From positions 1 through 64,000 of the forward strand of contig JAHUUK010000002.1 of the NCBI GenBank assembly GCA_019218375.1: DNA of 64,000 bases, read 5' to 3'. Position 1 is the stretch's first letter; the number at the start of each line of letters is the position of its first letter. A model generated the notes under the pieces. It did no database searches, had not been told where the DNA came from, and worked only from the letters and a program-made list of their open reading frames with translations. Positions 19,852-47,461 of the stretch are shown here, piece after piece. A program made the translations under genes and the position numbers. The stretch comes from Dermabacteraceae bacterium TAE3-ERU5 (lineage in GTDB: Bacteria; Actinomycetota; Actinomycetes; Actinomycetales; Dermabacteraceae).

Positions 19852-19895
19852 AACGGGTGGGTCCGCGCTCTAGCTAGAACGCGGACCCACCCGTT
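19852..19895. terminator. Bidirectional terminator
   Basis: A 16-base perfect stem AACGGGTGGGTCCGCG/CGCGGACCCACCCGTT. It separates the siderophore-interacting gene (stop 19832) from the convergent DUF7455 gene (stop 19913). Confidence 0.92.
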
Positions 19896-29985: not shown

Positions 29986-30032
29986 AATAAATAGCGGCGA
30001 GTCCCCGTTTGGGTGACTCGCCGCTATTTATA
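29986..30032. terminator. Bidirectional terminator
   Basis: AAATAAATAGCGGCGAGTC pairs with GACTCGCCGCTATTTATAT around a short loop. It lies between the convergent DUF4193 (stop 29959) and DUF3093 (stop 30038) genes, with AT tracts on both sides. Confidence 0.92.
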
Positions 30033-37709: not shown

Positions 37710-37813
37710 GCCAAAAATCTCTTGGCTTCAAGATAGTATTGTGACATGCCGTCAGTTAGCGCCTTTCGGATGCGCGCGGCGGCCCATTCCAACTTTTGAA
37801 GGAGAGTGGCCCG

Positions 37814-40513
37814 GTGAGCACCGTCAATTCGTACAACGCGAAAACCACCCTCGCGGTGGACGGCGAAGAATACGAAATCTATGCCCTGGACGCCGTTCCC
37901 GGCAGCGAAAAACTTCCCTACAGCCTCAAGGTGCTGCTAGAGAACCTGCTGCGCACGGAGGACGGCGCGAACATCACCGCGCAGCACATCGCCGCGCTGG
38001 GGGCCTGGGGCCCGCAGGCGGAACCGGACACGGAAATCCAGTTCACGCCCTCCCGCGTGATCATGCAGGACTTCACCGGCGTGCCCTGCGTGGTGGACCT
38101 GGCAACCATGCGCGAAGCGATGGCCGACCTCGGCGGGGACCCGAACGCGATTAACCCGCTCGCCCCCGCAGAAATGGTGATCGACCATTCCGTCATGATC
38201 GACATCGCGGGCAGGCTAGACGCGCTCGAGCGCAACATGGAGCTCGAATACGAGCGAAACCGTGAGCGCTACCAGTTCCTGCGCTGGGGGCAGAGCGCCT
38301 TTAGCGACTTCAAGGTGGTTCCGCCCGGCACTGGCATCGTGCACCAGGTAAACATCGAATACCTGGCCCGCACCGTAATGACCCGCGAGGTAGAGGTCGG
38401 CGGAGAAAAGGTGCTGCGCGCCTACCCCGATTCCTGCGTCGGCACCGATTCGCACACCACGATGGTGAACGGCCTGGGCGTGCTCGGCTGGGGCGTGGGC
38501 GGCATTGAGGCCGAGGCGGCGATGCTGGGCCAGCCCGTCTCCATGCTTATCCCGCGCGTAGTCGGCTTCAAGCTGACCGGAGACATCCCCTCCGGCGCTA
38601 CCGCGACCGACGTGGTGCTGACGATTACCGAAATGCTGCGCAAGCACGGCGTGGTCGGTAAGTTCGTCGAGTTCTATGGCGAGGGCGTGGCGAGCGTGCC
38701 GCTGGCAAACCGCGCCACCATCGGCAACATGAGCCCCGAATTCGGTTCCACCTGCGCGATCTTCCCGATCGATAGCGTCACCACCGATTACCTGCGGCTC
38801 ACGGGCCGCAGCGAACAGCAGGTGGCGCTGGTCGAGGCCTATGCCAAGCGGCAGGGCATGTGGCTGGACCCGGCCGCGGAAGCCCACTACTCCGAATACC
38901 TGGAGCTGGATCTTTCCACCGTGGTGCCCTCCATCGCGGGGCCAAAGCGCCCCCAGGACCGCATCGTGCTGAGCGAATCGAAGCAGGCGTTCAGGAAGGT
39001 GCTCCCCAACTACACCGGCGAGGGCGACGCGGACACCTTCGTCAGCCGTGCCCGCCGCGTGCCCGGCCAGGACTTCGAGATAGACCACGGTATCGTCTCG
39101 ATCGCCTCCATCACCTCCTGCACCAACACCTCCAACCCGTCGGTGATGATGGCCGCCGCGCTGCTGGCCCGTAACGCGGTGGAAAAGGGATTGTCGGCCA
39201 AGCCCTGGGTAAAGACCTCCATGGCCCCCGGCTCGAAGGTAGTCACCGACTACTACGAGAAGGCCGGCATGTGGCCCTACCTCGAAAAGCTCGGCTTCCA
39301 CCTGGTCGGTTACGGCTGCACCACCTGCATCGGTAACTCCGGCCCGCTTTCCACCGCGATCTCGGAAACTATTGCGGAAGCGGACCTGGCCGTCACCGCC
39401 GTGCTGTCGGGCAACCGCAACTTCGAGGGGCGCATCAATCCCGACGTGAAGATGAATTATCTGGCCTCCCCGCCGCTGGTGATTGCCTACGCGCTGGCGG
39501 GAACCATGGACTTCGACTTCGCGAGCGAACCGCTCGGCCAGGACGCCGAGGGCAGGGACGTGTTCCTTTCCGACATCTGGCCCTCCCCGGCGGAGGTTGA
39601 GGAAACCATCGCCAAGAACATCACCCAGGAAATGTTCAGCAGCGACTACGCGAACGTTTTTGCCGGTGACGAACGCTGGCGCGCGCTAGAGACCCCCGAC
39701 GGCGCCACCTTCGCCTGGGAGGACGATTCCACCTACGTGCGCAAGCCTCCCTACTTCGAGGGCATGGGCATGGAACCCGAGCCGGTGAGCGACATCTCCG
39801 GGGCGCGCGTGCTCGTGAAGGTTGGAGACTCCACCACCACCGACCACATTTCCCCGGCGGGCGCGATCAAGGCCGACACCCCGGCTGGCCGTTACCTGAG
39901 CGAGAACGGCGTGGAACGTAAGGACTTCAATTCCTACGGTTCCCGGCGCGGCAACCACGAGGTGATGATTCGCGGCACCTTCGCGAACATCCGCCTGCGT
40001 AACCAGCTGCTGGACGGCGTGGAGGGTGGCTACACCAAGAACCTGCTGACCGGCGAACAGGCGTTTATCTACGACGCCGCCCAGGACTACGCCGCAGCCG
40101 GGATTCCGCTCGTGGTGCTAGCGGGCAAGGAGTACGGCACGGGATCTTCCCGCGACTGGGCTGCCAAGGGCACGATGCTGCTCGGCGTAAAGGTGGTCAT
40201 TGCGGAAAGCTACGAACGTATCCACCGCTCCAACCTGATCGGCATGGGCGTGCTACCCCTGCAATACCCGGCGGGCGAAAATGCCGATTCGCTGGGGCTG
40301 ACGGGGGAGGAGACGTTCTCATTCACCGGCATCGAGGAACTTAACGAGGGGCGCGTGCCGCGCACAGTAAATGTGCGGGCCACCCGCGAGGACGGCTTCT
40401 CGGTCGAGTTCGCTGCCGTGGTGCGCATCGACACGCCGGGCGAGGCCGACTACTTCCGGCACGGCGGTATTTTGCAGTACGTGCTGCGTTCCCTGGCCGC
40501 GCCGCAGAAGTAA
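37814..40513 (+). CDS. acnA: Aconitate hydratase A
   Basis: TCA-cycle enzyme that isomerises citrate to isocitrate using a 4Fe-4S cluster. Cluster ligands are visible as [14 protein letters not shown] (about residue 435) and [14 protein letters not shown] (about 503). The early [20 protein letters not shown] and the C-terminal [15 protein letters not shown] swivel-domain loop are intact. At 899 residues it fits the AcnA/IRP1 class and not AcnB. I use the GTG at 37814 because AAGGAGAG lies about nine bases upstream and homologues begin near STVNSYNAK. The cluster should come from the suf system at 45291. The RNA-binding role of apo-aconitase is possible but not visible here. Confidence 0.96.
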
Positions 40514-40522
40514 CTTTTCCAG

Positions 40523-40573
40523 CCATCACCCCCTACCGTTTGCACATATGTGCGAATCGGTAGGGGGTGATGG
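40523..40573. repeat. Composite palindrome between acnA and dxs
   Basis: Perfect 16-base arms CCATCACCCCCTACCG and CGGTAGGGGGTGATGG enclose a perfect 12-base palindrome GCACATATGTGC (40542-40553). The outer hairpin is strong enough to terminate acnA transcription, but no U-tract follows. A near copy of the inner palindrome, GCACAGATGTGA, lies at 40613-40624, closer to dxs. Confidence 0.9.
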
Positions 40574-40699
40574 CATATCGGTGCGCACCCCTAAAAAGAC
40601 CCGTGAAGATATGCACAGATGTGACCATAAATGCCGACCGGGCTGGCTGTGCGGCCGTAGGCTAGGACAGTCCAAACCACGCCGCGGAGGTTTTTAAGC

Positions 40700-42478
40700 A
40701 TGTTCGAGGATATTTCTACGCCGCAGGACGTGCGCTCCCTACCTGCCAAGCAGCTGCCGGAACTCGCGCGCGAACTGCGCGCCCGCCTCCTTGCCGCAGT
40801 AGCCGAAAACGGCGGCCACCTCGGGCCGAACCTGGGCGTGGTGGAACTTACCATCGCCCTGCATCGCGCCGTGCGTTCCCCGGAAGAACCCATCGTTTTC
40901 GATACCGGGCACCAAAGCTATGTGCATAAGATGCTCACCGGCCGGGCCGAGCTTTCCCAGCTGCGCCGCGAGGGTGGCGTCAGCGGCTACCCCTCACGCG
41001 CAGAATCGGAACACGACGTGGTGGAAAATTCCCACGCCTCCGGCTCTATTGGCTGGGCACACGGCATCGAACGCGCGGGCAGGCTCCTTGGCACCCCCCG
41101 CGTAGCGGTGGCCGTGATCGGCGACGGCGCACTCACCGGCGGCGTGGCTCTGGAGGCACTCAACAACCTGGCTGCGGATCCGGCCTCCCGCACCATCGTG
41201 GTGCTAAACGACAACGCGCGCTCCTACGCGCCGACAATCGGCGGGCTTGCCGCCCACCTGGCGGAACTGCGCAGCGGCGCCGCCCCGGACATCTTCACCC
41301 AGCTAGGGCTGGGATACGTCGGCCCCCTCGACGGGCACGACGTGAACACCCTGGAAAGGGAACTGTGCGCCCTGGCGACCCGCATGCGGGCGGGGGAGGC
41401 CGGCCCCACGGTGGTACACGTGGTTACCCGCAAGGGCAACGGCTTCAACCGCGCCGAAGAGGACGTGCTGGATCAGATGCACGCCACCGGCCCGTTCCAG
41501 CTGGGCGAGCATGATGGCGAGAAGGTTGCCGCCCCGCAGGACGTTAAGAACGAACTTTCCTGGTCCGAAGTATTTGGGCAGGCCGCGCTGGAAGAAGCGC
41601 GCAAAGACCCCCGCACGGTAGCGATCAGCGCGGCCATGGTGGACCCCGTCGGGTTCACCCCGCTGCAGGAGGAACTGCCGGAGCGAGTGCTGGACGTCGG
41701 GATCGCGGAGCAGGAGGCCCTGGTGCACGCGGCCGGATTGGCGCGCGGCGGCATGCGACCCCTGGTGGCGCTCTATTCGACCTTCATGAATCGCGCGTTC
41801 GATCAGCTGCTGTTGGACATCGCCCTGCACAAAGAAAACGTGACCGTGGCGCTGGATCGCGCCGGTATCACCGGCGAAGACGGCCCGAGCCACCACGGCG
41901 TCTGGGACCTGGCTTTAGCCGCCCGCGTTCCCGGACTGCGGGTGGCCGCTCCTCGCGACGCGAAGCGCCTGCGCGAAGCCCTCGCCGGTTTCCTAGCCGA
42001 TGACGAGGGGCCTGCGCTGCTGCGCTATTCCAAGGGCAGTGCGCCGACGGAAATCCCCTCCCTGCACGCCGATTCTGCCGGGGAGGTCGTGTTTTCCTCC
42101 GGTCACGATGCGTTGCTGGTGGCGGTAGGTGCGATGGTGCCGACGGCCATCGCCGCAGCCGAGGAACTGGCGCGGGAAGGTATCCGGGTCGAGGTAGTCG
42201 ATCCGCTGCAGGCCCTGCCCGTGGGCGAAGCGCTCGTGGAACGGGCGCTGTCGGCACGCGCCGTCTTTACGCTGGAGGACGGCCTGGCCGAGGGGGGCGT
42301 CGGCACGGCCCTGCTTTCCGCCATGGCCGCTGCCTGCCCCGCCGGGCAGACGCTGCCGCGTTTCCACGCTTTCGGTGTGGGCGGGGAATTCCTGCCCCAT
42401 GCCTCGCGCGCACGCGTGCTCACGCTTGAGGGCATGGATGCCCCGGCGGTGGTGCGCAAGGTACGCGAACTGATCTAG
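40700..42478 (+). CDS. dxs: 1-deoxy-D-xylulose-5-phosphate synthase
   Basis: First enzyme of the non-mevalonate isoprenoid pathway; joins pyruvate and glyceraldehyde 3-phosphate with thiamine diphosphate. FDTGHQSYVHKMLTGR contains the catalytic His. VIGDGALTGGVALEALNN (about residues 135-152) is the ThDP and Mg motif. DRAGITGEDGPSHHGVWDL lies in the pyrimidine-binding domain, and the C-terminal transketolase domain is complete. The 592-residue length is a little shorter than the usual 620-640. GGAGG lies about eleven bases before the ATG. A TAGGCT at 40658-40663 is a plausible -10. No other MEP-pathway gene is in the window; the polyprenyl synthase at 14800 is a downstream user. Confidence 0.95.
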   Translation: MFEDISTPQDVRSLPAKQLPELARELRARLLAAVAENGGHLGPNLGVVELTIALHRAVRSPEEPIVFDTGHQSYVHKMLTGRAELSQLRREGGVSGYPSRAESEHDVVENSHASGSIGWAHGIERAGRLLGTPRVAVAVIGDGALTGGVALEALNNLAADPASRTIVVLNDNARSYAPTIGGLAAHLAELRSGAAPDIFTQLGLGYVGPLDGHDVNTLERELCALATRMRAGEAGPTVVHVVTRKGNGFNRAEEDVLDQMHATGPFQLGEHDGEKVAAPQDVKNELSWSEVFGQAALEEARKDPRTVAISAAMVDPVGFTPLQEELPERVLDVGIAEQEALVHAAGLARGGMRPLVALYSTFMNRAFDQLLLDIALHKENVTVALDRAGITGEDGPSHHGVWDLALAARVPGLRVAAPRDAKRLREALAGFLADDEGPALLRYSKGSAPTEIPSLHADSAGEVVFSSGHDALLVAVGAMVPTAIAAAEELAREGIRVEVVDPLQALPVGEALVERALSARAVFTLEDGLAEGGVGTALLSAMAAACPAGQTLPRFHAFGVGGEFLPHASRARVLTLEGMDAPAVVRKVRELI

Positions 42479-45270: not shown

Positions 45271-45290
45271 CTGTGAAGGGGGTGGATGGT

Positions 45291-46037
45291 ATGGGAACCA
45301 CGCATGAAGAAGCGTCCCCGCGAACGCGAGAACGCCTGGTAGAAGCGATTTCTGAGCTTGGTCCGGTTACCGCCACCGAGCTCGCGGAACGGTTCTCTTT
45401 GACCTCTGCCGCCGTGCGCCGCCACCTGGCTGCGCTCCACGCCGACGGCTGGATTGCCGAACACGTGCAACCCCAAACCGGGCGCGGCAGGGGCAGGCCC
45501 AGTAAGTCTTATGTGCTTACCGAGCGTGCCCACGGAGACCTCTCCAGTGAATACGACTCCCTGGCGCGCATGGCTCTCACGGAACTTCACGAAGTGGGAG
45601 GCGAGGACGCGGTTACGCGCCTTGCCAAGCGCCGCGTGGAACAGTGGGAGAGCGCCTTTGCGCAACGGCTAGCGGAACGGGAAACCGAAGCTGGAGCGCT
45701 GGGGATAGAAAAAAGGGTAGAGATCCTATCCGAAGTACTGAGTGATTTAGGGTACGCCGGGTCGGTGCGCCCGCTCGCGCTGCCGGTGGTGTCACGCACA
45801 ACCGGCGTGGGCGGCAGCGCTAACCGCCCCAGGGTGCGTACCGTGGAGGCAGCGCAACTGTGTCAGGGCCACTGCCCTGTGCAGGGTGCGGCCAGTGATC
45901 ACCCACAGCTTTGCGACGCCGAAACGGAAGCGATTTCCCGCATGCTCGGCGTCCCCGTACAACGCCTCGCCACTTTGGCGCGGGGCGACCATGCGTGCAC
46001 GACGCATATTCCTCTCACCGATGGAAGGACACCATGA
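45291..46037 (+). CDS. sufR: Fe-S cluster-sensing repressor SufR
   Basis: Helix-turn-helix regulator that represses the suf operon when its own Fe-S cluster is present. The winged-helix domain covers about residues 12-75 ([20 protein letters not shown]). The cluster ligands lie in the C-terminal part: LCQGHCPVQ and then HPQLCDAE, giving a Cx3C...C pattern, with another Cys near the end (HACTTHIPL). I prefer the ATG at 45291, with AAGGGGG eight bases upstream. A GTG at 45273 is possible, with TAGGAC six bases before it. The stop overlaps the sufB start, so sufR heads the operon and should autoregulate it. Confidence 0.92.
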
Positions 46038-47461
46038 CGAGCTCACCCGAGCAGCTCAGCCAGGACGAGATCATCTCGTCCATCGGCAACTACGAATACG
46101 GCTGGCACGACCCCGATGTGGCCGGCGCTGCCGCGCGACGCGGCCTCTCCGAAGAGGTCGTAAGGGACATCTCCCGGCTAAAGAACGAGCCGGAATGGAT
46201 GCTTAAGCGACGCCTGCGCGCGCTGCAGCTGTTCGATAAGAAGCCGATGCCCACCTGGGGCCCCGACCTTTCCGGAATCGATTTCGACACGATCAAGTAC
46301 TTCGTGCGTTCGACCGAGAAGCAGGCGCAGACCTGGGATGATCTTCCCGAAGACATCAAGGCCACCTACGACCGCCTAGGCATTCCCGAGGCGGAAAAGC
46401 AGCGCCTGGTAGCGGGCGTTGCGGCGCAGTACGAATCCGAGGTGGTCTACCACCAGATTCGTGAGGACCTGGAAAAGCAGGGCGTCATCTTCCTCGATAC
46501 CGACACCGGTCTGCGCGAGCACCCGGAACTGTTCGAGGAATACTTCGGCACCGTTATCCCCTCGGGCGATAACAAGTTCGCCGCGCTGAACACCGCCGTC
46601 TGGTCGGGCGGCTCGTTCGTTTACGTGCCGCCGGGCGTGCACGTGGACATCCCGCTGCAGGCCTACTTCCGCATCAACACGGAAAACATGGGGCAGTTCG
46701 AGCGCACCCTGATCATCGCCGACGAAGGCTCCTACGTGCACTACGTAGAGGGCTGCACCGCGCCGATCTACAAGTCGGACTCGCTGCACTCGGCGGTGGT
46801 GGAAATCATCGTGAAGAAGAACGCGCGCGTTCGCTACACGACCATCCAGAACTGGTCCAACAACGTCTACAACCTGGTCACCAAGCGCACCACGGTGGAG
46901 GCGGGCGGCACCATGGAGTGGGTCGATGGCAACATCGGCTCCAAGGTCACCATGAAATACCCGGCGGTTTGGCTGATGGGCGAACACGCCCGCGGTGAAA
47001 CCCTCTCCATCGCCTTCGCGGGCGAGGGACAGCACCAGGACACCGGCTCCAAGATGGTGCACATGGCACCCAACACCTCCAGCTCGATCGTTTCCAAGTC
47101 GGTCTCACGCGGTGGCGGGCGCTCCTCCTACCGCGGCCTGGTGCAGGTACAGGAAAGCGCGCACAACTCGGCCTCTAACGTGCTCTGTGACGCGCTGCTG
47201 GTAGATACCCAGTCCCGCACCGACACCTACCCCTACGTGGATGTGCGCGTGGACGACGTGCAGATGGGCCACGAGGCCACCGTTTCCAAGGTCAGCGAGG
47301 AACAGCTCTTCTACCTGATGAGCCGAGGCATGGAAGAGACCGAAGCCATGGCGATGATCGTGCGCGGCTTCATTGAGCCGATCGCGCGTGAGCTCCCCAT
47401 GGAATACGCGCTCGAACTCAACCGCCTGATCGAACTTCAGATGGAAGGAGCGGTGGGCTAA
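46034..47461 (+). CDS. sufB: Fe-S cluster assembly protein SufB
   Basis: Scaffold component of the SufBCD complex on which Fe-S clusters are built. The core is a beta-helix rich in short strands, with [40 protein letters not shown] (containing the conserved Cys), and the C-terminal [18 protein letters not shown] for SufC contact. The 475-residue length is normal. No intein is present, unlike SufB of M. tuberculosis. The ATG at 46034 overlaps the sufR stop (ATGA), with GGAAGGA upstream. SufD follows after two bases. Confidence 0.96.

Follow-up and report, generated by a model that had tools for sequence, protein, structure and literature searches.

The window, that is, the whole stretch of 64,000 nucleotides of Dermabacteraceae bacterium TAE3-ERU5 that was analysed, carries on its forward strand acnA (37796-40513, with the start codon given by the list of open reading frames) and, 186 bases further on, dxs (40700-42478, also forward). 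The first encodes aconitate hydratase (Pfam Aconitase, 1.2e-165, and Aconitase_C, 1e-43) and the second was assigned by its match to DXP_synthase_N (7.1e-83). The intergenic stretch begins with a hairpin on the forward strand (40522-40574), the outer arms of which are perfect, as a preliminary description of this DNA had stated, but 17 bases long (40522-40538 and 40558-40574) rather than 16. The same description had reported a perfect 12-base palindrome in the loop and a copy of it, identical at 10 of 12 positions, 71 bases downstream, and both were found as reported: GCACATATGTGC at 40542-40553, enclosed by the 19-base loop, and GCACAGATGTGA at 40613-40624. The latter forms the core of a 26-bp sequence, GTGAAGATATGCACAGATGTGACCAT (40603-40628), which we call element A. 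A TAGGCT hexamer (40658-40663, forward strand) and a GGAGG that, by eye, is the likely ribosome-binding site of dxs (40686-40690, forward strand) complete the region.

When the stretch was folded as RNA, the inner palindrome and the outer arms formed one continuous hairpin of 24 pairs, leaving no free palindromic loop. The 186 bases as a whole gave a fold z of -5.4, and none of 200 shuffles did as well. A search of the window for inverted repeats (perfect arms of at least 12 bases, spacer of 3 to 30) returned eight, among which the longest perfect arms, 17 bases, were those of this hairpin and, equally, of the inverted repeat at 29987-30031. Another hairpin of the window, at 19852-19895, has perfect arms of 16 bases and the palindromic tip TCTAGCTAGA, so that palindromic tips exist on other hairpins as well. 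Elsewhere, at 45273-47461, the translations suggest by eye that a sufB-like gene lies behind one for a helix-turn-helix regulator.

In the 1,917,293 bases of this 1.92-Mb genome, GCACANATGTGM occurred at two places only, the two palindromes (none in the reversed control), and the exact matches of TGCACANNTGTG were confined to the same two places. With one mismatch allowed, TGCACANNTGTG gave 44 rows, including palindromes counted once on each strand, versus 25 rows in the control. A regulon of the core motif was rejected, no pathway having emerged from 13 one-mismatch places sampled from 42 one-mismatch rows; most lay inside long open frames, a few were ambiguous and one, L212, lay outside. This last place (G000:C5:36375), where the one-mismatch copy TCCACATCTGTG stands beyond a ParB-like frame (by eye), may be a DnaA-box-like site close to the origin. 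The ispG locus contained no KCAC-N4-GTGM. The suggestion that the repeated palindrome is a nucleoid or recombination site, which the preliminary description had also made, was dropped because the motif occupies only two places in the genome, and a repeat family was rejected because the hairpin region has no further copy in either of the two members of the genus.

The downstream copy was followed through the family. From seven dxs upstream regions and the near-identical G001 we derived, by eye, the pattern GTGAA-N4-TGCAC-N4-GTGA and searched it in 47 Dermabacteraceae genomes with one mismatch allowed, dxs being counted as present when a match reached E 1e-100 or better. The first thing noticed had been a repeat GTGAAGAT-N-TGCACAGATGTGA, seen in six relatives' upstream regions and in G001. 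dxs was present in 30 of the 47 genomes, and element A stood upstream of it in all 30, exactly in 29 and with GTGC in place of GTGA in G002; 22 of these 30 genomes had played no part in drawing the pattern. The second dxs match of G051, on another contig, again had element A 215 bases ahead of it. At 27 of the 30 sites, window included, at least 23 of the 26 bases were identical to element A of the window, and KCAC-N4-GTGM was found at the core in 30/30, whereas the DXS proteins outside the genus share 54-62% identity with that of the window (full-length matches). Element A also preceded dxs in eight genomes without an acnA match in the upstream DNA, which for G050 comprises 153 bases only. 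Since element A is found before dxs family-wide, the second palindrome copy is, on this sequence comparison, part of a conserved dxs promoter.

Some match to the pattern occurred in 45 of the 47 genomes, those with one mismatch being mostly scattered single matches. Five identical one-mismatch matches spaced 321 bases apart in G015 (G015:C1:3299951-3301256) suggest a large tandem repeat. An exact match was absent from 14 of the 17 family genomes without a dxs match. The three others (G011, G021 and G058) have in common one identical 22-base exact match, which in the two that were inspected lies within a long open frame that looks by eye like a membrane transporter; this match is coincidental.

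DXS is the first enzyme and the committing step of the MEP pathway, a route to isoprenoids, and the family seems to be split into genomes with and without this pathway. ispG (PF04551) was detected in 31 of the 47 genomes, namely in all 30 with dxs and in G003, whose best dxs match reached only 6.8e-26. This co-occurrence suggests that the MEP pathway is missing from most family genomes that have no dxs, and that element A goes with the pathway. In a family of which only 30 of 47 genomes have the gene, element A serves as a marker of the dxs promoter.

Element A seems to be restricted to this family. In an order-wide scan of 396 genomes (34 from the family) with a 23-letter pattern and up to three mismatches, matches appeared in 17 family genomes, every one dxs-bearing, and in 2 of the 362 genomes outside the family, each time as a three-mismatch stray. 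The pattern missed 3 of 20 dxs-bearing family genomes sampled (G002, G005 and G009), in which the element is more diverged, so that weaker forms may exist elsewhere. A matrix scan of 91 dxs loci outside the family, from other actinobacteria, did not find element A, the best scores being 5.8 on the forward and 8.1 on the reverse strand, against 31.8-53.7 for the training sites.

The distance between element A and the downstream promoter sequence was nearly constant. In 30/30 genomes a TANNYT hexamer stood behind the 22-bp core of element A, at 33 bp in 27 of them, 32 bp in two and 31 bp in one, the background of this motif in the upstream DNA being 0.00055 per position. TAGGCT, already singled out in the preliminary description as a candidate -10 of dxs, sits at this invariant position and is thus the predicted -10. 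Transcription of dxs would then start near 40670, from a promoter without a good -35; a consensus promoter scan reported no promoter.

We considered the possibility that the conserved stretch acts as RNA, in the form of a leader or a small RNA, rather than as DNA. The stretch does fold well in the window, but this stability is due to the hairpin, the sequence of which is not kept, and the consensus fold of 15 of the 30 loci amounted to -4.17 kcal/mol, and its covariation term was -0.13. Rfam gave no match at the gathering score in five relatives' loci and, in the window, only chance-level matches of microRNA type below it. Furthermore, element A lies upstream of the conserved -10. We therefore regard an action as RNA as very improbable. 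A riboswitch or other structured RNA was rejected on the same grounds (no covariation in the 15 loci, no Rfam family). Also dismissed, on inspection by eye, was the idea that element A is crossed by a short conserved open frame, because its variable positions follow no codon pattern.

Element A could also be the site of a GlxR-like protein of the Crp type, acting as a class I activator. CGTGA-N6-GCACA, within element A, agrees by eye at 8 of 10 positions with TGTGA-N6-TCACA, and its centre falls some 60 bp ahead of the predicted start, class I activators being positioned near -61.5. A Crp-type helix-turn-helix protein (HTH_Crp_2) was present in 47/47 family genomes; in the genome studied here, a protein of 225 amino acids combines cNMP_binding with HTH_Crp_2, and its helix ASRETVNKALADF is one that we take to resemble GlxR. 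TGTGA-N6-TCACA is reported as the GlxR consensus, GlxR activates ldhA, and an imperfect GlxR site works (PMC7999487). The second half-site of element A is GCAC and not TCAC in 30/30 genomes; since an imperfect site can work, this lowers the claim of GlxR but does not abolish it. Also against GlxR, the canonical site was not enriched in the genus (5 places versus 7 in the control, in each genome), and strong conservation extends past the Crp-like core, to GTGACCAT. Taken together, these observations make GlxR an unlikely occupant.

The hairpin raised a separate question, which is whether it ends the acnA transcript. Compared with an intrinsic terminator of the U-tract type, it has the GC-rich stem and lacks the U run, none being present on either side, and the preliminary description had taken this as an argument against a plain terminator. 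That argument did not hold in the relatives. Among those with acnA upstream, 15 of 21 have an inverted repeat with perfect arms of at least 10 bases within 330 bases before element A; these 15 hairpins have different sequences, and in the 10 bases behind each of them no run of T exceeds two. Because a hairpin without U-tract is usual after acnA, that at 40522-40574 is most likely, on this comparison, the terminator of acnA.

The comparison with G001, the near-identical second member of the genus, provided further indications. The two intergenic stretches differ by 12 changes in 186 bases, 4 of which fall in the 17 bases of the left arm; the 19-base loop, the right arm and element A show none. 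The longest unchanged run, 53 bases, was not exceptional (permutation P 0.20), the two longest together had a P of 0.031, and the clustering of changes is thus weakly significant. On the acnA strand, two of the changes in the left arm replace A-U by G-U pairs. The folding energy of this strand went from -46.7 kcal/mol in the window to -42.2 kcal/mol in G001, and that of the opposite strand from -42.8 to -30.3 kcal/mol. This pattern would fit a hairpin that serves in the acnA RNA and the right half of which is independently kept. The preliminary description had proposed that if relatives kept the outer stem and lost the inner palindrome, a terminator alone would be left; G001 displays the reverse, with an intact loop (0/19 changed) and an altered left arm.

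To place the inner palindrome we turned to the more distant relatives, where short half-sites are arranged at regular distances from element A. In the 25 genomes of genus g4, presumably Brachybacterium, KCAC was found at -62 and at -41 in 23 each, a further block at -31 in 14, GTGM at -11 in 21, and GTGM at 0 and +18 as well as KCAC at +10 in all 25. The successive steps, 21, 10 (to the -31 block), 20, 11 and 10, are mostly near multiples of 10.5 bp, the last step, 8, being off. In a MAFFT alignment of 15 of the 30 loci, the inner palindrome of the window was aligned on the -62 block of the relatives. A matrix of this block, built from 23 distinct g4 sequences, scored 7.15 in the window, one base off the expected place (shuffle mean -2.5, P 0.0085), and found no match in G005 (-6.6) or G002 (-4.0). 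The sequence CATATCGGTGC, noticed by eye at 40574-40584 in the window, is also present in G005, where it lies 11 bp, or one helical turn, closer to element A.

An exact second KCAC-N4-GTGM upstream of element A was present in 7 of 28 regions (the 30 minus the near-duplicates G001 and G052) and absent from 21; the shuffles gave 0.70 on average and 5 at most, and 0/300 reached 7. The distance between the proximal and the second palindrome was 71 bp in the window, 50 bp in G022, 51 bp in G020, G057, G007 and G017, and 29 bp in G002, which corresponds to steps of about two helical turns. The associated Rayleigh p of about 0.0017 is overstated because the five cases at 50-51 bp probably share descent, which leaves about three independent places on the ladder, and the motif was picked after seeing the data.

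If the inner palindrome resembled the downstream one by chance, only the downstream element would be an operator, and the inner palindrome would be nothing but the tip of a long terminator stem. Such a tip is expected to be palindromic, the inner palindrome and the arms being one 24-pair stem, and the hairpin at 19852-19895 is palindromic at its tip too; moreover, the hairpins that follow acnA in relatives are unrelated in sequence, and G005 and G002 lack a distal-block match. Against a chance likeness, the inner palindrome matches the distal block in sequence and place, as measured by the shuffling P given above; between the two members of the genus, 4 of 17 bases have changed in the left arm and none in the tip or the right arm; and the genome has no exact GCACANATGTGM site other than these two, which are separated by 71 bases. 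On balance, chance likeness strikes us as rather improbable, though it is the most serious of the alternatives. The hairpin tip is probably a second site, on evidence weaker than that for the downstream copy. The earlier proposal that a dimeric regulator of dxs has a pair of operators here thus gained most for the downstream copy, which belongs to an element present in 30/30 genomes, and less for the inner palindrome as second operator.

The phased repeats could alternatively be the sites of a response regulator, MtrA or PhoP for example, of the sort that recognizes direct repeats about 11 bp apart. GTGAA does recur at 11 bp in most g4 genomes (those with GTGM at both -11 and 0), and TCAC-type words can be seen by eye on the minus strand of element A, 'GTCACAgcg' being cited as an MtrA motif in PMC2945938. 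The window, however, lacks the partner at 11 bp, and the core is palindromic in 30/30 genomes. We consider such a regulator quite doubtful, more so than GlxR.

The observed conservation of element A, its linkage to dxs, its fixed distance to the -10 and the spacing ladder can be brought together if the acnA-dxs region is an acnA terminator hairpin overlaid on phased operators of a putative dimeric dxs regulator, the distal one inside the terminator. We give this reading a probability of about 0.65. The control region of dxs would then be an array of short GTGM and KCAC half-sites at roughly helical spacing, anchored by element A with its core GCACAGATGTGA and reaching upstream to the distal palindrome GCACATATGTGC. 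A putative dimeric DNA-binding protein would occupy the palindromes from one and the same side of the helix and act on RNA polymerase at the TAGGCT -10. Activation would be likelier than simple blocking, because the predicted -35 is poor and every site is located upstream of it. In the genus of the window, where the spacer is short, the terminator stem would have come to enclose the distal site.

A more specific version of this reading, which we put forward tentatively and hold to be unlikely in full, is that an undescribed and nearly dxs-dedicated regulator of the Dermabacteraceae controls entry into the MEP pathway through phased GCAC-N4-GTGM palindromes, the distal operator being, in the window's genus, the very DNA of the acnA terminator. 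If this were true, occupancy of the operator could also influence the way in which acnA transcription ends. In the literature that was searched, we found no transcription factor acting on an actinobacterial dxs promoter, nor this element. Kept almost letter for letter in front of proteins that have diverged much further, the 26 bp of element A offer a ready bait for the regulator.

Several known systems invite comparison. CrtR, a MarR-type repressor of C. glutamicum that responds to isoprenoid pyrophosphates, likewise recognizes a palindromic site at actinobacterial isoprenoid genes, but its motif is centred on TTAA, and the targets named for it are its own gene together with the crt operon (PMC7432914, PMC5401885). 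A CrtR site was rejected by eye because element A lacks the TTAA-centred motif. With the class I sites of GlxR and Crp, element A shares the GTGA half-site, the N6 spacing to a CAC half-site and the position of the centre, some 60 bp ahead of the predicted start; it departs from them by its invariant GCAC second half, by the conservation outside the Crp core and by a genus in which the canonical site is unenriched. Pairs of operators in helical phase, occupied by dimeric regulators, are a known general kind, and the present arrangement is similar to them in its palindromic sites and in distances that differ by whole turns; it differs in that its regulator is putative and in having its distal site in a terminator stem. 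Factor-independent terminators without a U-tract occur in actinobacteria, and the hairpin behind acnA is like them in its long GC-rich stem right after the stop codon, but differs from them by the proposed role of its tip as an operator of the gene that follows.
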